From Rubripirellula obstinata (lineage in GTDB: Bacteria > Planctomycetota > Planctomycetia > Pirellulales > Pirellulaceae): DNA of 64,000 nucleotides. Of this stretch, positions 41,521 to 56,107 are shown piece after piece. Below the pieces are notes generated by a model that saw only the letters and a program-made list of their open reading frames with translations, was not told the origin of the DNA and made no database searches. A program made the position numbers and the translations under genes. Where the stretch lies: positions 124,001 to 188,000 of the forward strand of contig NZ_LWSK01000001.1 of assembly GCF_001642955.1 (NCBI RefSeq), read 5' to 3'. How positions within the stretch are numbered: position 1 is the first letter of the stretch; each line of letters starts with the position of its first letter.

Positions 41521-44500
41521 CTAATTTCCAAATGCCGAACGGAAAGCGGCGAAGTCGGTCAGGCTGACTTCGCCATCGCGGTCGGCGTCTAAGCCTCCGA
41601 CTAAATCCTCTTGACCAAAGACGCTTCGGAAGGCGGCAAAGTCGGTCAGTCCCACGGTACCGTCTCCATCTGCATCGCCGTAATCGCGGAAAAAACTGTC
41701 TACGCGATTGGCGGTGTTTCCAAAACCATCAAACCGATATCGCAATTCATAGGTTCCATCGGCAAGCGTGCTGGCGAGATCGGAATCGATTCCATTAATT
41801 ACTGAGTCGCCTGCGGTGAACGTCAACGTCGCAGTCGTTTTGCCACCTCCGTTGTCCGTATCAACCAACAGGCCACTGACGATTTCATTGGTTCGCGTAT
41901 TTGTTAGTTCAAAGTTACTGGCATCAAGCGTAACGATCGAATCGAAGTTCACGGTGATGGAGGTGACTTCCGATCGCGTCGGTCGGCCCGCGTTGATTTC
42001 GATCGAATCGACGTTCGGTGCCGAATTCACGCTGCCGGGCGTGGGAGCAGCGGCCTGCCAACTTCCCGCGAAAGCACCCAGCGTTGATGGGCCGATTCGG
42101 TTGAGGGAATTGCCCGAACCGTCTGCGGAGACTGGCCAAGGAGCCAAGTCGTCGTAGACCAATTCATCAACATTGACGTTTGGCTGAATCATTGGATCAT
42201 CCATTGGCGGATCATCGGGCGATTGCAGTTTGACCAGGCCGTTGCTGTTGGAGAGCGAACCCGTGAATGGACCGAGTAGCGTCACACCACCACCGGTAAT
42301 GCCGTAATGATTGTTGAATGCGGTCACGTCGCTGGTGTTGCTCGGTTCAAAAGGAACGATGACCAAACTCTGGCCCGCTGCAATCGATTGCCCCTCAGCG
42401 AAATTGAAGTCGCCTTCTCCACGAAGTCTCCAGTTCGACAAGTCGATCGTGCCATCGGTCCAATTGGTGACCTCGATAAATTCCAGGTTGTCTTCGTCGG
42501 CGGCATCGGGGTGATACTGGATTTCACTAATCACGACGTCCGAAAAAGCGAACGCGCCGTTGGTCATTCCCAGGCTAGGTTGGTGCAATGGGACCAACCG
42601 CGAACCGTCGGGCGTGCGTCCCAAAGACACGCCGTTAAAGGTTGCGCCGAATTCGACCGCGTCTTCGATTCGAGTGACGACGCCACCGGACGCTTGAGAC
42701 AAGTAAACCTGATCACCTTCGGCGGCATTGAGCCCAAAGCTAACCTGCCCAGGCAGGGCGGGATCGAGATTAAAGTCGCCTGCATCAAAGACGACCAAAG
42801 CACCAGGTTGCAGCGCCGGCATCGTTGGGATCCGATACTTCAATAGATTCTCGCTCGAATCGCTCAACCACCAACCACTGATGTTGATCGGCTGATCGCT
42901 GGAGTTGCGTAGTTCAATCGAATCGGATTGAGGCGGGTCGGTATGCGCAAGGATCTCGTTGACAACGATTCCCCGCGGAGCCACTGATGCGCTGCCGGGG
43001 GTTCCGCCAAACACGCCGCTGGCGGTCCAGCGATAGGGCTTGTCCAGTTCCGCGGCGGGCGTGTTCAAAGGATCGGTCAGCGAGAGCGTGCCACCGTTGC
43101 CGTCGGCGGCAAATGGCCAGGGATCACTGTCGCGATAATCAACGGACATGATCACGTTATTGGCTGAATCGATGACCTCGATTTCTTCGCCACTGTTGTT
43201 CAAGGCACCTTCCCAGACGCCTAGCACAAGGATCGGACCGCTGCCGGATCCAGCGTAACGAGCTGAGAAACCATCAGCGTCTTCGACCACGACTGCACGT
43301 TGCCCCGGAGCGAGCACGGTATCACCGAAGTCAAAACGAACGGCGTCCGATAGACTTAATCCCGACAGCGCGATCGACTCAGTGGCCGAGACATTCATGA
43401 CTTCAATAAAGTCTTCTACATCGTCTCCGCCATCGTTGTAATTAATTTCGGTGATCCGAAAATTCGTCGCGTCGGCGGGTTCGCCGGCCACGACAAAATC
43501 AGACGATTGCAGGGCCGACCATTGGGCACCCGCATCGCGTGCGCGGGTGCGAATTTGAACTGATTGATTCAGCACGATTGGATCGCTCTGGAACGCCGAC
43601 GCCACCCCCAACAACCTAGCATCGAAACTCAAGTCGCTGCTGGTGACCGGTCCGGTGCGTTGACCGTTGACGACACTGCGGATCTGATGCACTTCGATCG
43701 CAAGAACATTGTTGCCGACCACCAACAGGTTCGGATTCAGCGGAATGTTGATAAACGAATTGCCGTCGTTGCCAGCCGGACCGCTGGCGCTGGTGGAATA
43801 GCTAATCGCGCCGCTTGGCATGTTGATGCGATCGGCCTCGACACCATTCAAGTAGACCACGGCTCCATCGTCGACCTTTAACTGCAACGTTAGCGCGTCG
43901 AAGTCATTGGAGAGCGTGAAGGTTTTGCGGAAATAGGATGTTGGATGTTTGTCTTGTTGATTGGAGCCATACGAAATCTCCGTCGCCTCATCGGATTCGC
44001 CGTACCCAAGTTCGGCGTCGCCTTCGCTCCATCCTGAATCATTAAAACTGGATGATCGCCATGCGGTCCCCAGGTCGGTTCCGGTGTCGTCGTACTTCCA
44101 CGATTCGCCGTCATCGATCAGTGTTCGTTGACCCGCGATCCCGTTGAATTTGATCGCGTTTGGACTAACACCGCCGCCGGGAAGACGTGGGTCGGAGCCA
44201 TCGGTCGTGTAATAGATCTCACCGGCTTCGGCGGCGAACGTTAGTTCGCTGCCAGCAGCGGCCGCGCCGCCGGCTTGGACATTGGAATTGATCAGCGTTT
44301 GAGGCGCATCGATGCTGGGGAAGAATCCAAGGTTTTCGTATGCGTCCAGGACAATGCCTGAACGAGCTGGGAAGTAAGTATTGATCAACCGGTCGATCTC
44401 GGGCGTCCAATGGCCGCCCTTGGTGTACGGCTGCGACTCGCGGTTATCACCCCAGCGAGCGGATTCGGCAACGATGGCGTCTTCCAATTCAGCCACACGC

Positions 44501-46410
44501 GCATTCCATCTCGTTTCGGTGGCCGACGGTGTTAGCGCTCCGCCTTCGGAAAAGTGCAGGTGCAATCGGTCGCCAAAGCGGACAATGAATTCTGGAATGT
44601 CTGAAAGGTCAGCCAGCATGCGGGTCGCGTCAGTGATCGTTCCGGGCAGTTTCGCATTGACGCCTTCCAACGTCCGCTCGCTATCCCAGGAATACATCCG
44701 CCACTTGGCACCGTCTAACCCGCCCCCCGCGGCCCGCCAATTGCCGTTGAATTTCAGGTCATCATTGCCGCCGTAGGCATTGATGATCGTCCAGTCGATG
44801 AAATTATCGACGTCCAAACGATTGGTCACTTCGGTCCAATTGCCAGCCGCTGCTGCGGCCTTCAGTGCATTGAAAGATGCGATCGTCCCATCGACTGGCG
44901 ATCCACCGTTGAGTGCATCGATGCGATCATCGTCGCCACCATGGTACTCGGCATAGTGCGACGCATCTGCTCTTTCGTGAACGTTGTAAACGCCCCAATA
45001 CAAACCATTCAAATACAGGTTCGCATAGGACCCGCGTCCGCCATCATCATTGCCCATTGCAATCATCGAATCGCGAATGAATTGATCGCGAATCAACGTC
45101 CCGCGATCGCGTTGATTTGAATCGCGGTGGATCCACGAATTGTTGTACATCGCCCGCAATTGAAGGCTGTTAAATTCGGTGACCGGCGAATCGGCAAACA
45201 GCGGATAATCAAGTCGCGATGCACCGTAGATCGACCGAAATCGAAGACTCATCGAATGCTTGGCCGAAGCCGAAGGATTACGACTCGCACCGCCGGCGAT
45301 TTTGAGACCGGCATCGACCTGGAATCCGGACTCTCCGTCCGCCAAAATCCACTCCACCGACGTCGCAACCTCGATCGTGTCATCTTGTGGGTTACTGTAG
45401 ATGCCGGCTGGGCCAAAGATATTGTCGACATCCGAGGTCAGCGACAACGTCGGCAGTGATTCCAATGCCGCCAGGACATCGGCGCGGCCGGTCGGGTTTC
45501 CTGGGCCAGCGATCTCTGGATCGATTTCATAATCAATAAACCTCGGTAGACCCGTGGTGGGAAAACCCGCTGGGGCGGAGGGCTGATCGACAACGTCGTT
45601 CAAGTAGAAATACGACTGAGTATCAACGTTGGTTTCTAGCAGACCGTTCTTGAACGCCGCGGCACGCAAGACTGTCGTTGTATTAATCGGGACCGAAGCC
45701 GTCGGCGCGGTGTTGGCACCGACGAATACCGCCGTTCCGTTGGACAGCGTCGGCTCACTGCCGTCGGTGGTGTAAACCAGCGTCGCACCCTCGGTCGCCG
45801 AAGTCACGTCCACGACAATTGGCGAGGTGTAGAACCCACGGTCCAAGCTAAAGGTTGTGTCTTCGACGAATCCTTCCACGCCAATTCCGTTTGCTGTGCG
45901 CGGCGTTGGTGTGACGAAGTAGCGATTCGTATTTCCTGATGAATCGATCCCAAACGAAATGTCACGTTGCTGATCAGGATAGTCGCTGGTTGCCGACCCA
46001 AACTCGTTGGCGACCTGGCCACCGGGTTGAACCAGCGCCAAGTACTCGCCGCCGGCGCTGAGTCTGAAATTGGTATGCAGTTCGCCGGTTGAAGGTTCGG
46101 GCACACCATCACCGGAGGCAAACACAACCAGGAAATCACCTGCCGCTAATTCTGATTCCGGTGTGTCAGGAAACGTCCACTGATCCAATTCATCGGGATC
46201 GTCGGTCAACGACCAGCCCTGCAAGTCGCCCGCGGTGCTACCAACGTTCCGAATCTCGATCCAATCCGAAGACCGACTGTAGGCGTCGAGCAAGGAAGAG
46301 CCGTTGGAAGCAACAAACTCGGTGATTAGAAAGTCGGCCGCCAGTAACTGGCGTTTCTCGAGCGATTCCAGGCGGTTAAGACGTGACTTCGTTTTACGCG
46401 AGCGTGGCAT
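41521..46410 (-). CDS. Giant surface protein: LEPR-XLL, lamin-tail, CotH and dockerin domains
   Basis: A 1629-residue putative secreted/surface protein. The N-terminus MPRSRKTKSRLNRLESLEKR followed by QLLAADFLITEF is a LEPR-XLL-type signal that in planctomycetes marks large exported proteins. Lamin-tail domains (LTD: WIEIRNVGSTAGDLQGWSL at about 51; similar blocks at about 1150-1240, 1280-1330 and 1420-1470) alternate with a chitobiase/hexosaminidase-type C-terminal-like beta domain (GATLVYTTDGSEPTLSNG and GEIYYTTDGSDPRLPGGG). A CotH kinase-like region spans about 330-720. The C-terminal EF-hand-like pair GDADGDGTVGLTDFAAFRSVFG and DADRDGEVSLTDFAAFR is a dockerin type I. Suggests extracellular matrix attachment; the CotH activity and the partner cohesin are not proven. 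Confidence 0.88.
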   Translation of the reverse strand: MPRSRKTKSRLNRLESLEKRQLLAADFLITEFVASNGSSLLDAYSRSSDWIEIRNVGSTAGDLQGWSLTDDPDELDQWTFPDTPESELAAGDFLVVFASGDGVPEPSTGELHTNFRLSAGGEYLALVQPGGQVANEFGSATSDYPDQQRDISFGIDSSGNTNRYFVTPTPRTANGIGVEGFVEDTTFSLDRGFYTSPIVVDVTSATEGATLVYTTDGSEPTLSNGTAVFVGANTAPTASVPINTTTVLRAAAFKNGLLETNVDTQSYFYLNDVVDQPSAPAGFPTTGLPRFIDYEIDPEIAGPGNPTGRADVLAALESLPTLSLTSDVDNIFGPAGIYSNPQDDTIEVATSVEWILADGESGFQVDAGLKIAGGASRNPSASAKHSMSLRFRSIYGASRLDYPLFADSPVTEFNSLQLRAMYNNSWIHRDSNQRDRGTLIRDQFIRDSMIAMGNDDGGRGSYANLYLNGLYWGVYNVHERADASHYAEYHGGDDDRIDALNGGSPVDGTIASFNALKAAAAAGNWTEVTNRLDVDNFIDWTIINAYGGNDDLKFNGNWRAAGGGLDGAKWRMYSWDSERTLEGVNAKLPGTITDATRMLADLSDIPEFIVRFGDRLHLHFSEGGALTPSATETRWNARVAELEDAIVAESARWGDNRESQPYTKGGHWTPEIDRLINTYFPARSGIVLDAYENLGFFPSIDAPQTLINSNVQAGGAAAAGSELTFAAEAGEIYYTTDGSDPRLPGGGVSPNAIKFNGIAGQRTLIDDGESWKYDDTGTDLGTAWRSSSFNDSGWSEGDAELGYGESDEATEISYGSNQQDKHPTSYFRKTFTLSNDFDALTLQLKVDDGAVVYLNGVEADRINMPSGAISYSTSASGPAGNDGNSFINIPLNPNLLVVGNNVLAIEVHQIRSVVNGQRTGPVTSSDLSFDARLLGVASAFQSDPIVLNQSVQIRTRARDAGAQWSALQSSDFVVAGEPADATNFRITEINYNDGGDDVEDFIEVMNVSATESIALSGLSLSDAVRFDFGDTVLAPGQRAVVVEDADGFSARYAGSGSGPILVLGVWEGALNNSGEEIEVIDSANNVIMSVDYRDSDPWPFAADGNGGTLSLTDPLNTPAAELDKPYRWTASGVFGGTPGSASVAPRGIVVNEILAHTDPPQSDSIELRNSSDQPINISGWWLSDSSENLLKYRIPTMPALQPGALVVFDAGDFNLDPALPGQVSFGLNAAEGDQVYLSQASGGVVTRIEDAVEFGATFNGVSLGRTPDGSRLVPLHQPSLGMTNGAFAFSDVVISEIQYHPDAADEDNLEFIEVTNWTDGTIDLSNWRLRGEGDFNFAEGQSIAAGQSLVIVPFEPSNTSDVTAFNNHYGITGGGVTLLGPFTGSLSNSNGLVKLQSPDDPPMDDPMIQPNVNVDELVYDDLAPWPVSADGSGNSLNRIGPSTLGAFAGSWQAAAPTPGSVNSAPNVDSIEINAGRPTRSEVTSITVNFDSIVTLDASNFELTNTRTNEIVSGLLVDTDNGGGKTTATLTFTAGDSVINGIDSDLASTLADGTYELRYRFDGFGNTANRVDSFFRDYGDADGDGTVGLTDFAAFRSVFGQEDLVGGLDADRDGEVSLTDFAAFRSAFGN

Positions 46411-47162: not shown

Positions 47163-47852
47163 TTACTTACGTCGGCGTCGTACCAAACCGCAAACGCCAG
47201 CCACGCCGAGAATGGCAAGCGAGGAAGGTTCGGGAATGACGGTGGTTCCAACGGACGCGACCAAGGCGCGATCATTACGGATGGTGCCGTTATCCTGCAC
47301 CACGCTGACAAGGTAAGCTGGATCTGCCGCCCCACCAGCGAAGCTACCGACTGCCTGAAGTCCGTAAACGTTGTTGCCAGGCAAGTCCAAAATAGCCGGG
47401 ATAGCAGTTGCGTCATTCTGAAATGCGAAAAACAACCGGTCGCTAGTATCTGCCAGATCAGCGTTGGAAGTTACAGTAATTCCAGTAAAGGTGTAATTGA
47501 TCGGTGAACCATCGCCACCACCGAATGTTGCCGCAGCATCCGATGCGCCAAGAAAACCCGTTAAATCGGTGCCGTCGTAGCCACTGTAAACACCCAAAAA
47601 CAGATCAACCACTTGGGTATTTTGGCTGCTCCCTACCAAACCGATGCTGTCGACAGAGTAGGTCACGTTCTCGGTCAGAGTAACGGTCTGCCCAGTGAGG
47701 GTCGACGGAGTCGCATCGAAATCAATAAAAAGACCACCCGGTGCCCCAAACGAAGATTGGGGACTTGCAGTGGTGTCAATCACAATGTCAGCGGATGCCG
47801 TTCCGGTCAGCATCAGGGCACCGACAAGGGTAAAAATCAATTTCTTCATCAT
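47163..47852 (-). CDS. PEP-CTERM sorting-domain protein
   Basis: A 229-residue secreted protein with an N-terminal signal peptide (MMKKLIFTLVGALMLTGTAS then A) and a C-terminal PEP-CTERM sorting signal: VIPEPSSLAILGVAGVCGL followed by VRRRRK at residues about 205-229. This signal is normally removed by an exosortase (EpsH/XrtA type). The middle is beta-rich (TLTGQTVTLTENVTYSVDSI, VSVVQDNG) with no known domain. Both ATGs at 47852 and 47849 are possible; AAGG lies upstream. No exosortase gene occurs in the window. Confidence 0.88.
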   Translation of the reverse strand: MMKKLIFTLVGALMLTGTASADIVIDTTASPQSSFGAPGGLFIDFDATPSTLTGQTVTLTENVTYSVDSIGLVGSSQNTQVVDLFLGVYSGYDGTDLTGFLGASDAAATFGGGDGSPINYTFTGITVTSNADLADTSDRLFFAFQNDATAIPAILDLPGNNVYGLQAVGSFAGGAADPAYLVSVVQDNGTIRNDRALVASVGTTVIPEPSSLAILGVAGVCGLVRRRRK

Positions 47853-48406: not shown

Positions 48407-48880
48407 CTAAGACGCCAGCTTATTCGAAGGCTTGCCGCTGCCAGCTTTCTTCCTCGCTGGCTTGGTGACCAAGCGTATTTCTGGCATTCGGTTCTTACCG
48501 CCGTGGAACGTTCGCCGGCCTTCGATGGTGTGGTCGAAAACGAAAACACCGTTGGATGAGCCTCGTGGCGAGATTCGTAGAATTGCCGGATGCCCGCACT
48601 CGCTGCACTGGACCCTTAGCCCGTGCGAATCAAGCATCCGTGCGATCGCATCGACCAGCTTTCGGTTCTCTTCGATCGATCCCATCGATTGACCGGCAAA
48701 CTGGTTCAGCTTGTCCGCAATCGTCATGCGAATCGATCGTTGCAGCCTGGCGAGATCCTGTTCGAGCGACTGCAGAGCCTGCGACGGACGCTCGCCGGCA
48801 ATCCGGCCGACGTCTTTTCCAACCAAGACGTCTTTTCCAGCCAGATCGGGCGGCGTATCGGCTGGCTCGGTGGTAGACAT
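48407..48880 (-). CDS. Hypothetical protein with a Cys-pair motif
   Basis: A 157-residue protein with no family I recognise. N-terminus is polar with an in-frame near repeat (LAGKDVLVGKDV). Residues about 40-80 are helical and likely coiled coil (LEQDLARLQRSIRMTIADKL). A CSECGHPAILR motif at about residue 97 hints at a metal or nucleic-acid-binding segment but a second Cys pair is missing. The tail is Lys/Arg-rich (TKPARKKAGSGKPSNKLAS). It is divergent from the GAF-HlyD gene and may share the regulatory palindrome at 48945-48963. Confidence 0.7.
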   Translation of the reverse strand: MSTTEPADTPPDLAGKDVLVGKDVGRIAGERPSQALQSLEQDLARLQRSIRMTIADKLNQFAGQSMGSIEENRKLVDAIARMLDSHGLRVQCSECGHPAILRISPRGSSNGVFVFDHTIEGRRTFHGGKNRMPEIRLVTKPARKKAGSGKPSNKLAS

Positions 48881-49202: not shown

Positions 49203-51266
49203 ATGTCGGTCAACCAGCAAACGGTCGAGGAAACCAAGGCACAGATTCGTGGATTGGTCAACGAGATCGCTGCCTTGGCAAAGAGCGGCGCGACCGCCGA
49301 AGAGTTCTATTCTGAATTGCTCTCGCGAGTGATCACGGCTCTGGCCGCACCCGGCGGCGCGGTTTGGTTGCTCGACGATGATCAGCATCTAAAGCTGCAG
49401 TATCAGATCAATGCTGAACCATCGATCTTGGCCGAGGACACCGAAGATGCTCTGCGTCACAAACGTCTGCTGCAACGTGTCGCCCACAGCGGCCAATCGT
49501 TGCTGGTGCCACCGTACTCCGGCACAACCGATGGTGATGCCGAAGGCAACCCGACTCGTTACTTGTTGGTTCTCGGTGCGTTGAAGCATGAAGGCCAGAA
49601 CGACGGTTTGATTGAGATTTTCCAGCGTCCGGACACCGCGCCTGACACGCAAAAAGGCTACCTGCGGTTCCTGCAACAAATGTGTGAGTTGGCGACCGAG
49701 TGGTTGCGGACTCAAAAGCTTCAAAAGCTAGGTGATCGCCAAACGCTATGGCAGCAAGCCGATTCGTTCGCTCGCGCGACTCATGAATCGCTCGACCTAA
49801 AAGAGACCTGTTACATCGTCGCCAACGAAGGCCGACGAATGATTGGTTGTGACCGAGTCAGCGTGGCGATCAAGAAGGGCGGTAAGTGTACGGTCCAGGC
49901 GATCAGCGGCCAGGACACGATCGAAAATCGATCGAACATTGTGACGGCTCTAAATAACTTGGCGACTCGAGTGGTCGCGGCCGGTGAACCGCTTTGGCAC
50001 GATGGATCGACCGAAGATCTGCCGCCGCAAATCGAAGAGGCGCTTGAAGACTACGTGGACGAATCCTACGGTCGGCAAATCGCGGTGCTGCCACTTCGTG
50101 AACCTGAGCGACGCCTTGGTCAGGACGAAGAAGCGGGTGCCGCGGGAACGATCGATCGCGACAACGCTCACCGAGGCGAAGTGATTGGGGCGCTGATCGT
50201 CGAGCAGATCGAAAGCGACATTCCTGCCGAAATCTATCGCTCTCGCGTCGATCTGGTTTACGAACACGGTACACGAGCGATCGCGAACTCGCGGGCTCAC
50301 AGCAATCTATTCTTGATGCCGCTCTGGCGTGCTTTGGGACGTGCGACTTGGGTGCTGCGTGCTCGGACACTGCCCAAGACACTGGCGGTGCTCGGCTTGA
50401 TCGCTGCCATTATCTTGGGGCTGACGTTCATTCCCAAAGACTTCAACCTGGAAGCCGAAGGCACGTTGATCCCCGAGGCTCGCCGCGAGGTCTTTGCACC
50501 GATTGACGGTGAAGTGATCGAGGTCTCGGTCGACCACAATGACGTCGTCAAAGCAGGCGACGTTTTGATCCGGCTTAGAAATCCGGACATGGAACAACAG
50601 ATGGTTGAAGTCGAAGGCCAAATTCTGACGACGCTGGCCGAACAGTCGCGAGTGAAGGGGCAACTCAGTTATGGCGAAGACTTAAAGCGGGCCGACGTTC
50701 AAGCATTGAAGTCAGAACAAAACGAGCTTGAGATTAAGTACAAGGTGCTGCTTCAGAAAAAAGCGTTGCACGAAAAACGTGCCGAGGATTTGAACATTCG
50801 CTCACCGATCGATGGTGTCGTCGTTTCTTGGGACGTCGAAAAGATGCTGCGAAGTCGTCCGATTATGACCGGCCAGGTTTTGTTGGAGGTCGCCGATTTG
50901 AATCAGCCGTTGCGATTGGAATTGGATCTGCCCGAAAAACGTGAAGGTCACTTGGACGAGTTTGTCCGAACCAACAATCTGACTGAGCCCGATTCGGTGA
51001 TCGACGTCTCGTACATTTTGGCGACCGACCCCGATCAACCTCTTGATGCGGTCCTGCCGGTCCGAACAATCGCGACACGTGCGGAAGCCAACGAAGAACA
51101 TGGCGCGATCATCAAGATGAAGGCGCTTCCTGAACAAGAACCGTTGCGTCGTTTGAACCCGCGTCCAGGCGCGAAGGTGATTGCAAAGGTGAAGTGTGGT
51201 CGAGCATCGAGCGGGTTCGTGTTCTTCCACGAAATTTATGAATGGTGTTGCAAGTTTTTCTTCTAG
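49203..51266 (+). CDS. GAF-sensor fused to HlyD-type membrane fusion protein
   Basis: A 687-residue protein that joins a cytosolic sensor to a periplasmic adaptor. Residues about 30-170 and 190-385 read as two GAF-like domains (GGAVWLLDDDQHLKLQYQIN; CYIVANEGRRMIGCDRVSVA, with GEVIGALIVEQIES at the end). One transmembrane helix TLAVLGLIAAIILGLTFIP is at about 391-410. The periplasmic part has the split lipoyl/barrel-sandwich halves (RREVFAPIDGEVIEVSVDHN, near 425-470, and NIRSPIDGVVVSWDVEKML, near 538-560) around a coiled coil, then a beta-barrel segment. No ABC, RND or outer-membrane partner lies beside it. It leads a three-gene cluster; the next gene starts 816 bp further, after a hairpin array. 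Confidence 0.9.
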   Translation: MSVNQQTVEETKAQIRGLVNEIAALAKSGATAEEFYSELLSRVITALAAPGGAVWLLDDDQHLKLQYQINAEPSILAEDTEDALRHKRLLQRVAHSGQSLLVPPYSGTTDGDAEGNPTRYLLVLGALKHEGQNDGLIEIFQRPDTAPDTQKGYLRFLQQMCELATEWLRTQKLQKLGDRQTLWQQADSFARATHESLDLKETCYIVANEGRRMIGCDRVSVAIKKGGKCTVQAISGQDTIENRSNIVTALNNLATRVVAAGEPLWHDGSTEDLPPQIEEALEDYVDESYGRQIAVLPLREPERRLGQDEEAGAAGTIDRDNAHRGEVIGALIVEQIESDIPAEIYRSRVDLVYEHGTRAIANSRAHSNLFLMPLWRALGRATWVLRARTLPKTLAVLGLIAAIILGLTFIPKDFNLEAEGTLIPEARREVFAPIDGEVIEVSVDHNDVVKAGDVLIRLRNPDMEQQMVEVEGQILTTLAEQSRVKGQLSYGEDLKRADVQALKSEQNELEIKYKVLLQKKALHEKRAEDLNIRSPIDGVVVSWDVEKMLRSRPIMTGQVLLEVADLNQPLRLELDLPEKREGHLDEFVRTNNLTEPDSVIDVSYILATDPDQPLDAVLPVRTIATRAEANEEHGAIIKMKALPEQEPLRRLNPRPGAKVIAKVKCGRASSGFVFFHEIYEWCCKFFF

Positions 51267-51276
51267 TTTCCTCAAC

Positions 51277-52062
51277 GTAGGCCGTAGCGAGCCCCAGCGA
51301 GTTACGGCGTCCCGATTCCCGAACACACACTTGCCGAAACTCGCTACGGCCTACTTGTCATCCTTGACGTAGGCCGTAGCGAGCCCCAGCGAGTTACGGC
51401 GTCCCGACTCCCGAACACACACTTGCCGTAACTCGCTAAGGCTCGCTACGGCCTACTTGTCTTCATTGACGTAGGCCGTAGCGAGCCCCAGCGAGTTACG
51501 GCATCCCGATTCCCGAATACACACTTGCCGTAACTCGCTAAGGCTCGCTACGGCCTACTTGTCTTTGTTGACGTAGGCCGTAGCGAGCCCCAGCGAGTTA
51601 CGGCATCCCGATTCCCGAATACACACTTGCCGTAACTCGCTGAGGCTCGCTACGGCCTACTTGTCTTCGTTGACGTAGGCCGTAGCGAGCCCCAGCGAGT
51701 TACGGCATCCCGATTCCCAAACACACACTTGCCGTAACTCGCTGAGGCTCGCTACGGCCTACTTGTCTCCATTGACGTAGGCCGTAGCGAGCCCCAGCGA
51801 GTTACGGCGTCCAGATTCCCGAATATACACTTGCCGTAACTCGCTGAGGCTCGCTACGGCCTACTTGTCATCCTTGACGTAGGCCGTAGCGAGCCCCAGC
51901 GAGTTACGGCGTCCCGATTCCCGAATACACACTTGCCGTAACTCGCTAAGGCTCGCTACGGCCTACTTGTCTTCATTGACGTAGGCCGTAGCGAGCCCCA
52001 GCGAGTTACGGCGTCCCGACTCCCGAATACACACTTGCCGTAACTCGCTACGGCCTACTTGT
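51277..52062. repeat. Tandem array of eight 102-bp hairpin units
   Basis: Units start at 51277, 51369, 51471, 51573, 51675, 51777, 51879 and 51981. Each full unit has a left arm of 32 nt (gtaggccgtagcgagccc then cagcgagttacggc), a loop of about 24 nt (cccgattcccgaatacac), a right arm (gccgtaactcgctaaggc then tcgctacggcctac) and a 14-nt spacer ending ttgac. Arms pair with a 2-nt mismatch (cc/tt). The first and last units lack aaggctcgct in the right arm. A solo copy, in inverted orientation, lies at 55350-55440. Confidence 0.97.
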
Positions 52063-52082
52063 CCTTCCAAAAAGTTTTTCTC

Positions 52083-52976
52083 ATGCGCCAGACACTTATC
52101 CTAAAAGCGTTTTTACCTGTGGCGATCGCGATTGCCGCGACGACCAGTCTCGTGCATGCCCAGGAACGTGGTGAGCGTGAAATCCGTGCCGTCAATTGCT
52201 CGGTTCGCTACATCAACAAGACTGACATTCCGGCAAAGGCTGACGGAACGCTCACTGAGTTGATGTTTGAAGAAGGCGACACCGTCACCAAGGATCAAGT
52301 GCTGGCGACGATTGATGCAACCGCGGCAAAGCTTGCCGTCGAACTGAAAAAGGCGGAGGAAAAAGAGGCCACACTCAACGCACTCAATGACATCAACCTT
52401 AAAGACTCCATCAACAACGAAAAAGTCGCCAAGGCCGAATACGAGTCTTACAAAGTGCTTCGCAAAGAAGGTGCGATCCCGTATTGGGAAATGGAGAAGA
52501 AGCGTTTGGAAGCAGAACGTCAGGTGCTGCGAATTGAATTGGCCAAGATGGAACAGAAAATTGCTTTGATCAAACGCATTGCGAAGCAAACTGAATTAGA
52601 CATGGCCGAATTTGAATTGACCAAACGCGATGTCACTTCACCGGTCACCGGGTTCATCGAAAAACGAATTGCACAAATTGGCCAATGGGTCCAAGCGGGC
52701 AGTCCCATCGCAACTCTGATTCAAATGGATCGGTTGCGAGTCGAAGGCGACATCGATGCATTGCGTTACCCCGGCGTCGTTGAAAAGGGTGCTGCCGTCG
52801 AAGTCACGGTCTTCCAAGGCGATCGCAGCGTGACCGTTGATGGAACAATTGGTTACGTCAGCATGGAAGTGGACGTCCGAGATTTGAATAACATTTGGGT
52901 CGAGATCGAAAACGAAAAGTTCGGCAACGATTGGAAATTCAAACCCGGCATGAAAGCCGAAATCACGATTAAGTAA
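52083..52976 (+). CDS. HlyD-family periplasmic adaptor
   Basis: A 297-residue membrane fusion protein without sensor domain. The ATG at 52083 gives a Sec signal MRQTLILKAFLPVAIAIAAT then TSLVHAQ, cleaved before the mature part. The barrel-sandwich halves are INKTDIPAKADGTLTELMFE (about residue 43) and the right half DVTSPVTGFIEKRIAQIGQW (about 185), with a long coiled-coil hairpin (KKAEEKEATLNALNDINLKD through QKIALIKRIAKQTELDMAEF) between. Beta barrel follows, ending with FKPGMKAEITIK. It starts 21 bp after the hairpin array. Confidence 0.9.
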   Translation: MRQTLILKAFLPVAIAIAATTSLVHAQERGEREIRAVNCSVRYINKTDIPAKADGTLTELMFEEGDTVTKDQVLATIDATAAKLAVELKKAEEKEATLNALNDINLKDSINNEKVAKAEYESYKVLRKEGAIPYWEMEKKRLEAERQVLRIELAKMEQKIALIKRIAKQTELDMAEFELTKRDVTSPVTGFIEKRIAQIGQWVQAGSPIATLIQMDRLRVEGDIDALRYPGVVEKGAAVEVTVFQGDRSVTVDGTIGYVSMEVDVRDLNNIWVEIENEKFGNDWKFKPGMKAEITIK

Positions 52977-53070
52977 ATAGCGATTAGCTTTTAGCGATTA
53001 GCTGTTAGCTTTCCAAATCCAACTTCCTCATCCAACAAAACTAATTGCTAACAGCTAATCGCTAAAAGCT
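52977..53070. repeat. GCTAATCGCTAACAGC hairpin element, copy 2
   Basis: Left half agcgattagcttttagcgat then tagctgttagct (52979-53010), right half ctaattgctaacagctaatc then gctaaaagct (53041-53070). The two halves pair over gctgttagc/gctaacagc and agcgattagct/agctaatcgct. It fills the whole junction between the HlyD adaptor stop (52976) and the M50 start (53077). Confidence 0.85.
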
Positions 53071-53076
53071 TCTTCC

Positions 53077-55314
53077 ATGTCTACTCTTGCCGAATCCCTT
53101 GTTAGCAGCTCGTCACGTGCGCTGACGGTGCGCAAGCGTCCTGACCTGTCCGCGAACCGGCAACGGTATCAGGGCACGGGTTATTGGGTGGTCAAGGAAC
53201 CGGTGGGATTGCAGTACTTTCGTTTTCATGACGAAGAGTACTTCATTCTGAACATGTTGGATGGCCACGTTTCGCTGCAGCAGATCAAAGAAGGATTTGA
53301 GCGGCGGTTTGCACCTCAGAAGATCACGTTTGGTGATTTGCAGCAATTCATTGGCATGTTGCATCGCAGCGGTTTGGTGATCAGCAATTCGCCTGGCCAG
53401 GGCAAGGCGCTGCGTGAACGTGGACGGAAGAAGAAGAACAAAGAGACGCTGGGCAAGTTTGCCAACGTCTTTGCACTTCGCTATCGCGGTTTCGACCCCG
53501 AGAAAATCCTCAACGCGATCCTGCCTTGGTTCGGTTGGATCTTTACGGTTCCCGCTCTGCTGTGTTTTGGATTACTGCTATTCGCCGCGTCGATGTTGCT
53601 GGCTAGTCAGTACGACACGGTTTACGCCAAATTGCCCACGTTCCAGCAGTTTTTCGCTGCCGATCGTTGGTTGATTCTGGCCGCAACGATGGGCATCGTT
53701 AAAGTTATCCACGAATTCGGTCACGGTCTGAGTTGCAAAAAGTTTGGTGGCGAGTGTCACGAAATCGGCTTCATGTTGTTGGTCTTTACGCCCTGTTTGT
53801 ACTGCAACGTTTCCGATTCGTGGATGTTGCCCAACAAATGGAAACGGGTTTGGATTGGTGCGGCCGGAATCTATGTCGAGATGATTTTGGCGTCGGTTGC
53901 TGCGTTCGTTTGGTACTTCACTGAAAACGGAACGACGATCAATGACCTTTGTTTGAACATGATGTTTTTGAACGTCGTCAGCACCGTGTTGGTCAACGGA
54001 AATCCGTTGCTACGGTTCGATGGCTATTACATCCTGATGGACGCGTTGGAAATTCCCAACCTTCGTCAGAAGAGCACCGAAGTTCTGAAACGATGGTTTC
54101 AAAAAACATGCTTGGGATTGGAATTGCAGGACGATCCGTTCTTGCCGACACGTGGCAAGTTCATGTTCGCGATGTTCACGATCGCCAGTGTGATTTACCG
54201 ATGGGTGGTCGTCTTTTCGATCGTCTGGTTTGTGATCAAGGTGCTCGAACCCTACGGCTTGCAAGCGGTTGGGCGAATGGTTGCTGTGGTTGGTTTCTTT
54301 GGATTGGTGGCTCAACCGGTCAAACAAACGTGGAAGTTTTGTCGTACACCTGGGAGATTGTCGAAAGTGAAACGTAAGCCTCTATTGACCTCGCTAGCGA
54401 TTTTCGCGGCCATCATTGCGGGCGTCTGTTACATCCCGTTGCCCCACCACATCGATTGTGCTTTCGAGGTCAGGCCTAGCGAAGCCGGTTCGGTTTACGC
54501 GGGAGCCCCCGGGCGGATTGAGTGGACGGTTGATCCCAAGGCAATCGTTCGCCAAGGCGATCCAATCGCGGTGCTGAAGAATCCGGATCTGGAAATCCAG
54601 CTCGCTCAACTGCGCGGTGAAGAAACCGTTTCTCAGGTCAAACTGCGGAACTTGTCGTTTCAGGTGCGGGATAACGAAGCCCTGAAATCACAAATTGAAA
54701 CTCAAGAAGAACTGTTGGCGTCGGTTCAGCACCTCAGAGAAAAAACCGAGGAAGAGCTTGACCGTTTGACCGTTCGTGCCAAGCGAGACGGCTATGTGAT
54801 CGAACCACCTTATCGTGAACCTCAAAATGGCCGCGACGGACGATTGCCGGGTTGGACCGGGTCACCGCTAGATCAAAAGAACCGTGGTGCGCTGTTGACT
54901 GCGGATGACGTCATCTGCGAAATCGGTGCTCCCAATGATTACGAAGCGGTGGTCGTGATTGACCAGGGCGACGTTCAGTTGGTTCGTGAAGGTCAAGCAG
55001 TTGATTTGAAGTTTGATTCGTTGCGGATGAAAACGTTCAGCGGAATGATCACCGAAAAGTCCAATGAACCACTCGAAGCGACATCGGTTTCTATGTCCAG
55101 CCAGACCGGCGGTGATTTGCAAACCGAAATTGATCCAACGACCGGAATGGTTAAGCCACGAAGCGTGTCGTATCAGGCAAGGGTGCCACTAAAACTGGAT
55201 GGTGTTTTGGTGCGGCCCGGCTATCGCGGTTCAGCAAAGATTCACGTGGACCCAATGTCCCTGGGAGGAAGACTTTGGCGAGTGATTGCCAAGACCTTTA
55301 ACTTTGAGCTTTAG
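53077..55314 (+). CDS. PqqD-like / M50 site-2-protease / HlyD fusion membrane protein
   Basis: A 745-residue protein that combines three parts. Residues about 20-105 read like a PqqD-type winged domain (RPDLSANRQRYQGTGYWVVK, then LDGHVSLQQIKEGFERRFAP). Residues about 140-440 are an M50 metalloprotease: HEFGH at about 211-215 (IVKVIHEFGHGLSCKKFGG), and the partner N-P-L-L-R-F-D-G-Y-Y motif at about 309-319 (NGNPLLRFDGYYILMDALE), with six or more helices. After a transmembrane helix the C-terminal third has HlyD-type lipoyl halves (GRIEWTVDPKAIVRQGDPIA, about 475-495; RAKRDGYVIEPPYREP, about 569-584) and a beta barrel. PqqD domains bind RiPP leader peptides in other systems; a similar role is inference. 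Confidence 0.9.
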   Translation: MSTLAESLVSSSSRALTVRKRPDLSANRQRYQGTGYWVVKEPVGLQYFRFHDEEYFILNMLDGHVSLQQIKEGFERRFAPQKITFGDLQQFIGMLHRSGLVISNSPGQGKALRERGRKKKNKETLGKFANVFALRYRGFDPEKILNAILPWFGWIFTVPALLCFGLLLFAASMLLASQYDTVYAKLPTFQQFFAADRWLILAATMGIVKVIHEFGHGLSCKKFGGECHEIGFMLLVFTPCLYCNVSDSWMLPNKWKRVWIGAAGIYVEMILASVAAFVWYFTENGTTINDLCLNMMFLNVVSTVLVNGNPLLRFDGYYILMDALEIPNLRQKSTEVLKRWFQKTCLGLELQDDPFLPTRGKFMFAMFTIASVIYRWVVVFSIVWFVIKVLEPYGLQAVGRMVAVVGFFGLVAQPVKQTWKFCRTPGRLSKVKRKPLLTSLAIFAAIIAGVCYIPLPHHIDCAFEVRPSEAGSVYAGAPGRIEWTVDPKAIVRQGDPIAVLKNPDLEIQLAQLRGEETVSQVKLRNLSFQVRDNEALKSQIETQEELLASVQHLREKTEEELDRLTVRAKRDGYVIEPPYREPQNGRDGRLPGWTGSPLDQKNRGALLTADDVICEIGAPNDYEAVVVIDQGDVQLVREGQAVDLKFDSLRMKTFSGMITEKSNEPLEATSVSMSSQTGGDLQTEIDPTTGMVKPRSVSYQARVPLKLDGVLVRPGYRGSAKIHVDPMSLGGRLWRVIAKTFNFEL

Positions 55315-55714
55315 TATTTTACAGCAGCCCAATCATCGGGTCGCAGTTTGTAGGCCGTAGCGAGCCTTAGCGAGTTACGGCATCGAGATTCACCCATGCA
55401 CAATTGCCGTAACTCGCTGGGGCTCGCTACGGCCTACTTGAAAACGATGGCCTTCCGTTTTTACGCAAAGCTCGTGGTTTAACACTGCGAAACGTCAACC
55501 TTACTATTTCAAACCAGAACAGGATCTTCTGAAGTTGCAGCACCGCGTTGGTTCGTTACCATACGGCGACTGCAATTGAGGTGCGAACGGGCGGCACCGC
55601 TGGAAGATCTTTTTTAGCCCCATTCCTTTCATCATCTTCTGCATCGAACTCGTTTCACTGTGACGACGAGCGATTCGGAAATGAACCACCTCGAGATTTT
55701 CGGAGAAACTATCC
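55315..55714. repeat. Intergenic region with a solo copy of the array hairpin
   Basis: 55350-55440 is one hairpin unit of the 51277-52062 array type, inverted in orientation (left arm carries tt, right arm gg, the reverse of array units). 55442-55714 carries no recognised gene; a GGAG lies 9 nt before the DUF3467 start. Confidence 0.85.
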
Positions 55715-56107
55715 ATGGCAGATGCCAAGAGCCCTGAATCCACTGACAAGCCCGCCGCCGCTGCTGCACCTGCAGCCGCCGAGCAAGCTCAAACTCAGCA
55801 ACCTGTACAAGTTCAGGTCAACGACGAACACGCCGCTGCAACCTATGCCAACTTTTGCCGCGTGACGGGTTCGCCCGAAGAGTTGATTGTTGACTTTGGT
55901 TTGAACCCGCAACCGATCGGTGTTCCCAAGGACCCAATCCAAGTCAAGCAACGCATCATCTTGAACTTTTTTACCGCCAAGCGATTGTTGGCCGCATTGC
56001 AAATGTCGGTCGCACGGCACGAATCCGTGTTCGGTGTTTTGGAAACAGACATCAACAAGCGAGTTCGCCCAGGCCTTCAACAGCAACAAGCTCCTAAGAA
56101 AGACTAA
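55715..56107 (+). CDS. DUF3467 domain protein
   Basis: A 130-residue cytosolic protein of the DUF3467 family (function unknown), whose sequence centre reads FCRVTGSPEELIVDFGLNPQ, then IILNFFTAKRLLAALQMSV, typical of the family. The N-terminal 40 residues are an Ala/Pro/Gln-rich disordered tail. Start ATG at 55715 with GGAG upstream. DUF3467 proteins in other bacteria often lie next to gas-vesicle or other surface systems, but nothing here proves a link. It lies 400 bp after the export-type trio on the same strand and has its own terminator. Confidence 0.85.
   Translation: MADAKSPESTDKPAAAAAPAAAEQAQTQQPVQVQVNDEHAAATYANFCRVTGSPEELIVDFGLNPQPIGVPKDPIQVKQRIILNFFTAKRLLAALQMSVARHESVFGVLETDINKRVRPGLQQQQAPKKD

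Follow-up and report, generated by a model that had tools for sequence, protein, structure and literature searches.

The closest described counterpart of the locus analysed here is a module reported in 2015, which comprises a truncated secondary SecA_DEAD protein together with M50-HlyD, HlyD and GAF-HlyD proteins and, in some loci, TolC (OEP) (Kamneva, Poudel and Ward 2015, PMC4452313). This module occurs in Planctomycetes and Proteobacteria, with members whose parts are encoded apart also being known; SecA was proposed as its ATPase and the M50 protein as its membrane part, and its broader role was called "completely unknown" (PMC4452313). Among the members that the paper lists is META1p2399-2402 of Methylobacterium extorquens AM1. 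PqqD, LEPR and giant proteins are not mentioned in the main text of that paper.

Further systems resemble the module in part. Type I secretion (ABC-HlyD-TolC) shares HlyD adaptors with it, a TolC-type channel in those loci where TolC adjoins the core, and giant proteins that the module would secrete, but here an M50 protein and a SecA-like ATPase replace an ABC gene beside the core, and the module's signal is likely N-terminal. The leader proteases of daptides and epipeptides (LiaK/YydH) possess a similar RRE plus M50 core (aligned residues 34–418), whereas the protein studied here scores below the cut-offs of both, is fused to HlyD, and belongs to a family whose neighbours are giant proteins rather than small precursors. 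Accessory SecA2 systems likewise dedicate a second SecA to special surface proteins, although the module's SecA-like protein is shorter (about 620–740 aa) and stays under the SecA2 cut-offs. Finally, LEPR-XLL proteins (NF012209) are giants with the same N-terminal LExRxLL motif, the planctomycete motifs being more varied and mostly under the model cut-off; in the open-licence literature searched, no paper was found on the route by which LEPR-XLL proteins leave the cell.

The window, i.e., the whole stretch of 64,000 nucleotides of Rubripirellula obstinata that was analysed, holds the same three core proteins together (M50-HlyD, HlyD and GAF-HlyD), but differs from the 2015 module in that a SecA-like protein and TolC are not encoded in cis. 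That paper includes members with parts encoded apart (PMC4452313), and the absent neighbouring SecA does not speak against counting the triad as a member of the module. We consider that the locus, as a split copy of the module, probably encodes the core, in inner membrane and periplasm, of an exporter for giant LExRxLL ("LEPR-XLL") proteins. Relative to the 2015 description, three elements are new: a PqqD/RRE domain, the conserved membership of DUF3467, and a likely cargo in the form of the LEPR giants.

The gene set of the window and its conservation

Three consecutive genes had been read as an export-type system in a preliminary description of this DNA, and all three were confirmed where it placed them, each with its HlyD half (Table 1). 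Their conservation was followed in 39 orthologous loci outside the own genome (M50 protein of at least 65% identity): given enough upstream DNA, GAF-HlyD was found in 35/35 and HlyD in 34/35 loci, so that the triad, whose joint conservation the preliminary description had proposed as its own test, is real and strongly conserved. What had been overlooked is that DUF3467, retained in 31 of the 33 loci with enough downstream DNA, is a fourth conserved member of the set. Remoter relatives also hold the triad, several of them (L077–L094) carrying DUF3467 upstream instead, and in several alphaproteobacterial operons DUF3467 follows the giant gene and precedes GAF-HlyD. An apparent GAF-HlyD/HlyD fusion in one locus (L061) seems to be due to a frameshift. 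Seven M50-HlyD genes are present in the own genome, and of 294 Planctomycetota genomes sampled, 67 were counted as having the M50-HlyD fusion, nearly all at E < 1e-30 with a few partial or weaker ones accepted by hand.

DUF3467 is non-specific to the module, as it is also found without it (41 of the 61 genomes with DUF3467 have M50-HlyD in our own count). Its fold, predicted from 24 sequences, consists of three strands and a long helix (core pLDDT 88–96); comparison of this model with solved structures yielded no significant match (best E 0.17) and a weak likeness to MRP1/MRP2, Sub1 and Pur-alpha, which leaves a role as SecB-like chaperone unsupported.

Table 1. Features of the locus in window coordinates. 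Transmembrane (TM) segments and the signal peptide of the triad proteins were called by eye on the sequence.
Feature	Position	Strand	Details
Candidate cargo, 1629 aa, N-terminal LExRxLL (RLESLEKRQLLAAD)	41521..46410	-	profile A1 match
LEKRQLL motif of candidate cargo, residues 17–23	46342..46362	-	read from sequence
GAF-HlyD gene	49203..51266	+	687 aa; cytosolic GAF domain(s), one TM, periplasmic HlyD half; HlyD_3 5.1e-10
GAF domain, residues 198–335 of GAF-HlyD	49794..50207	+	PF01590 26.4 bits, cut-off 22.4
102-bp palindromic tandem repeat array	51340..52054	none	fills gap between GAF-HlyD and HlyD genes
HlyD-type periplasmic adaptor	52083..52976	+	297 aa, ATG 52083; HlyD_3 6.8e-18
PqqD/RRE-M50-HlyD gene	53077..55314	+	745 aa; Peptidase_M50 3.5e-7, HlyD_3 3e-6
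PqqD/RRE-like domain, residues about 10–102	53104..53382	+	family profile vs. solved structures
M50 intramembrane protease core, residues 202–366	53680..54174	+	PF02163 3.5e-7; HEFGH 212–216, D315-G-Y-Y
DUF3467 gene	55715..56107	+	130 aa; PF11950 1e-24

Profile searches recovered the PqqD, M50 and GAF domains that had been assigned to these proteins, PqqD by way of the family profile. The GAF-like sensor domains had been described in the plural; one of them exceeds its Pfam cut-off, and a second, N-terminal GAF_2/GAF_3 match (about residues 30–161) stays under it. The HlyD adaptor, with a signal peptide but without TM anchor, reached 93.2 bits vs. a cut-off of 94.9 on TIGR01730.

Taken alone, the M50-HlyD protein of the window matches PqqD at E 0.005, with 17.6 bits falling below the PF05402 cut-off of 23.4. 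A profile of 50 sequences of the N-terminal domain of this family, in turn, found solved structures of PqqD (3g2b, 3.6e-5) and of two RRE proteins that bind RiPP leaders, TfuB1 and TbiB1 (6jx3, 0.0019; 5v1u, 0.0069), and PF05402 was matched by 26 of the 50 family members. The PqqD/RRE assignment of the window protein is upheld because of this support from the family profile and the 26/50 members. As for the protease, H212, E213, H216 and D315, which lie in the HEFGH and FDGYY motifs noticed earlier, proved to be invariant in 64 aligned M50-HlyD relatives, and HExxH is retained in 88 of 92. Since the zinc ligands and the catalytic Glu are thus invariant in the 64 sequences, the M50 site looks active. 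The NCBIfam models nearest to the RRE-M50 part are those of the daptide intramembrane metalloprotease (NF041824; 182.4 bits, cut-off 300) and of the epipeptide leader protease (57 bits vs. a cut-off of 225), which is consistent with leader handling.

The gap between the first two genes is filled by seven 102-bp units of a palindromic repeat (half-site TAGGCCGTAGCGAGCC), a single copy of which also lies at 55350–55437, before DUF3467. The 30-base core of this repeat has 164 forward and 166 reverse matches across the own genome, and the repeat was found in none of the orthologous loci checked; the array belongs to a genome-wide repeat family and stands outside the machine. Promoter and terminator scans of the locus performed no better than on shuffled sequence. 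Two genes on the minus strand were noted nearby, i.e., a small conserved protein encoded divergently upstream of the triad (48407–48880), the cluster of which occurs in 25 loci, and a protein near the triad with, by eye, a PEP-CTERM-like C-terminal sorting signal (47163–47852).

SecA-like ATPases and TolC proteins beside the core genes of relatives

No SecA, TolC, ABC or RND gene lies beside the window copy of the triad, and the earlier remark that ABC, RND and channel genes are missing there is true as written. The energy source and the channel had been described as open, which does not hold for the family, where SecA-like ATPases and TolC adjoin the core genes of relatives and paralogs. Two partners recur in the neighbourhoods of relatives and paralogs, namely a SecA-like protein (about 620–740 aa) and TolC-family proteins, the latter adjoining paralogs and relatives of the triad and not the window copy. 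An ABC gene was found neither near the window triad nor as a recurrent member of the neighbourhood clusters of relatives.

One SecA-like protein that was tested matched SecA models at 1e-130 to 1e-204, every one below cut-off; the scores of the SecA-like neighbour in genome G121 on the SecA2 models were below the cut-offs of both (547 vs. 930 for TIGR03714 and 615 vs. 1085 for TIGR04397). In G121 and G205, both with orthologous triads, the gene order is SecA-like, GAF-HlyD, HlyD, M50-HlyD, DUF3467, and a protein of ~1,170 aa with an LExR motif. The closest SecA-like gene of the own genome is situated on another contig (C286), is 60% identical to that of G121, and groups with it in a SecA tree in which the lone housekeeping sequence falls among the SecA-like proteins and one row (L198) occupies an extreme branch. 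Because this relative of the G121 protein is encoded on a different contig, the window copy appears to be the SecA-like/M50/HlyD/GAF module in split form.

In Alphaproteobacteria the parts are assembled in an operon of the form [giant LEPR protein]-[DUF3467]-[GAF-HlyD]-[RRE-M50-HlyD]-[SecA-like]-[HlyD]-[TolC], some parts of which are missing in some cases. A further type, found in E. coli, Azospirillum, Burkholderia, Niveispirillum and Variovorax, consists of the giant gene, TolC, HlyD, HlyD and M50-HlyD, with the SecA-like gene absent. As a separate observation, a ClpV/TssH-like ATPase is encoded beside core genes in two loci (L126:3143–5998 and L127:4222–6918), the copy in L126 scoring 1284 bits on TIGR03345, over the cut-off. 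In two plasmid clusters of Alphaproteobacteria (L222:17200–18021 and L263:12069–12848), a SapC-family gene is found next to M50-HlyD or close to the gene of the giant.

Giant LEPR proteins as candidate cargo

Large genes recur beside the core genes, and their products carry an N-terminal LExRxLL motif behind a K/R-rich stretch, a motif named LEPR-XLL domain by NCBI (NCBIfam NF012209). Since NF012209 is too narrow for the planctomycete motifs (variants of LE[PDSKQ]R.[LMV]L), which it mostly misses or scores under its cut-off, a profile (A1) was built from 27 motif segments; a search with the exact LEPR pattern at the DNA level proved overly strict.

When genes at most two positions from the core were compared with those further away, the motif was present within the first 90 aa of 23/363 vs. 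4/543 products (p 1.3e-6), and of 20/140 vs. 1/180 products of at least 500 aa, in a test with some circularity, as these loci are where the motif was first noticed. An independent set was formed by plasmid records retrieved through M50-HlyD protein similarity alone, from the ranked list of which 20 places were chosen by hand; 17 of these were assessable, H21, H30 and H38 not being judgeable. A large protein bearing the motif at its N-terminus, as LExRxLL or LExRxMF, was located in or near the cluster in 15 of the 17 assessable proteobacterial plasmid loci. The giants measure 12,918 aa in Pseudosulfitobacter, 10,603 aa in Pontibrevibacter and 10,518 aa in Mesorhizobium, 8,848 aa in Methylosinus, 4,033 aa in Thalassospira, 3,399 aa in Azospirillum, 3,302 aa in Burkholderia anthina, about 16,240 aa in Variovorax, and 4,459 aa in E. 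coli. The 15 loci also include those of Sinorhizobium, Pseudohalocynthiibacter, Cupriavidus and Niveispirillum, as well as Tistrella, a looser case in which about 4.4 kb separate the cluster from the motif gene downstream, and strain M382, in which the motif gene spans the start of the record. The loci of Magnetospirillum and Phyllobacterium (2/17) had no motif-bearing neighbour.

Across the 294 Planctomycetota genomes, A1 matches at E 0.01 occurred in 48, i.e., in 42 of the 67 genomes with M50-HlyD vs. 6 of the 227 without (p 7e-27, for genomes that are phylogenetically non-independent). This co-occurrence persisted when the 11 seed genomes were left out (31/56 vs. 6/227), an exclusion that may be incomplete as some A1 seeds came from contig records possibly overlapping the sample, and when it was counted by family (20/29 vs. 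5/63, p 3e-9; the family total of 92 is the highest family number listed). A strict LEPR match was absent from 25 of the 67 M50-HlyD genomes. In a relaxed search of hand-picked genomes differing in assembly quality, several of 15 such genomes with M50-HlyD had matches in frames of 1,500–13,571 aa, and the longest matching frame in 15 genomes without M50-HlyD was 1,255 aa.

The own genome has 55 A1 matches up to E 10, most of them in frames >1,000 aa (maximum 10,579 aa), and about 50 LEPR frames. LEPR-motif proteins lie directly beside two paralogous cores of this genome (L122:12189–14999 and L123:1–3987), the frame in L123 (G000:C210) being that of 10,579 aa. No cargo gene adjoins the window copy; the candidate cargo within the window (Table 1), matched by A1 at E 9.0e-5 (G000:C1:170327–170383), is not adjacent to the triad. 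Elsewhere in the genome (G000:C24:27991–59357), seven LEPR genes stand in a row, ~5 kb apart, as a tandem family of large genes. Among complete E. coli genomes, 24 of 5,426 have the SecA-less version of the module, in most cases on a plasmid; plasmid NZ_CP081687.1 (L239) encodes the 4,459-aa protein, a DUF4347/Ig-like protein with LExRxLF.

On these sequence comparisons, giant LEPR proteins are likely the cargo class. As far as the open-licence papers searched are concerned, their link to the module is new, an earlier mention elsewhere being possible.

A possible export route and its alternatives

As we picture it, a giant pre-protein would be bound at its LExRxLL leader by the cytosolic PqqD/RRE domain of M50-HlyD, this leader would be trimmed or released by the M50 site, and the chain would be pushed by a truncated SecA-like ATPase that is dedicated to the task and whose gene lies elsewhere in the own genome. 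The three HlyD halves may provide the passage through the periplasm to a TolC channel. GAF may tune the activity, and DUF3467 may assist on the cytosolic side. Leader binding, cargo cleavage, energy coupling and complex geometry are steps that we infer, and the complete order of events is offered tentatively, with slightly less than even confidence. The recognition, intramembrane cleavage and export of a cargo without ABC or RND transporter, as anticipated in the preliminary description, fit the evidence; what co-localises with the genes is a giant LExRxLL protein and not a small RiPP precursor. The weak point of the model is its energy source, because the E. coli- and Azospirillum-type clusters lack a SecA gene; in SecA-less clusters, either the housekeeping SecA serves or SecYEG is the inner-membrane route.

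The latter possibility can be extended to the whole family, such that the LEPR giant would cross the inner membrane via ordinary SecYEG/SecA and the module would only process its N-terminus and guide the chain through periplasm and outer membrane. The clusters without SecA-like gene (E. coli, Azospirillum, Burkholderia, Niveispirillum and Variovorax) speak for such a division of labour, and a SecA-like ATPase lacking a dedicated channel could itself act on SecYEG. However, LEPR N-termini are mostly devoid of a strong Sec-type hydrophobic core (by a rough measure, in which values overlapped and one signal peptide was compared). Moreover, a dedicated SecA-like gene is retained in many loci of planctomycetes and Alphaproteobacteria, and its product has no room for the C-terminal parts by which SecA usually contacts SecY (PMC4452313). 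We therefore regard this route as unlikely, although it deserves to be reckoned with.

The other readings have far less in their favour. Maturation and export of a small RiPP-like peptide would agree with the RRE domain and with daptide and epipeptide leader proteases as nearest models, but both scores are below the family cut-offs (182 vs. 300 and 57 vs. 225 bits), the position of the cargo gene is taken by giant LEPR genes, and the search for conserved small genes nearby that had been recommended earlier came back empty except for DUF3467, no other precursor-like gene recurring in the neighbourhood clusters (ORFs of at least 50 aa). A RiPP pathway was rejected on the missing precursor and these scores, and export of such a peptide is highly improbable. 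GAF and M50 domains are both frequent in signalling (textbook background), and one could imagine a device in which GAF senses a ligand, M50 carries out regulated intramembrane proteolysis of a regulator, and HlyD is a scaffold; three HlyD proteins with adjoining TolC, SecA-like and giant exported-type proteins argue against this, as does the lack of a conserved sigma/anti-sigma gene among the recurring neighbourhood clusters, leaving it a touch less probable still. Even slighter is the chance that the LEPR link is coincidental, the giants being merely abundant in these genomes: the number of LEPR genes in the own genome and the window copy without directly adjoining LEPR gene would allow it, but the motif frequency drops steeply with gene distance, linkage is near-complete in the plasmid loci of several proteobacterial genera, and the co-occurrence holds across genomes and families. 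Classical type I secretion was set aside, as no ABC gene stands beside the core.

Returning to the export of giant LEPR proteins by the module, there is about an even chance that Planctomycetota and Proteobacteria possess in it a distinct protein secretion system. Giants of up to about 16,000 aa would be exported via their N-terminal LExRxLL leader, by the joint action of a leader-binding domain of RiPP type, an intramembrane protease, a truncated SecA and a conduit of three HlyD proteins with TolC. LEPR-XLL proteins are very large and numerous here (about 50), and the module has had no known substrate since its description in 2015; once the two are connected, single gene deletions can put both the route of the proteins and the substrate of the module to the test. 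If true, RiPP-style leader recognition would extend from small peptides to giant proteins.
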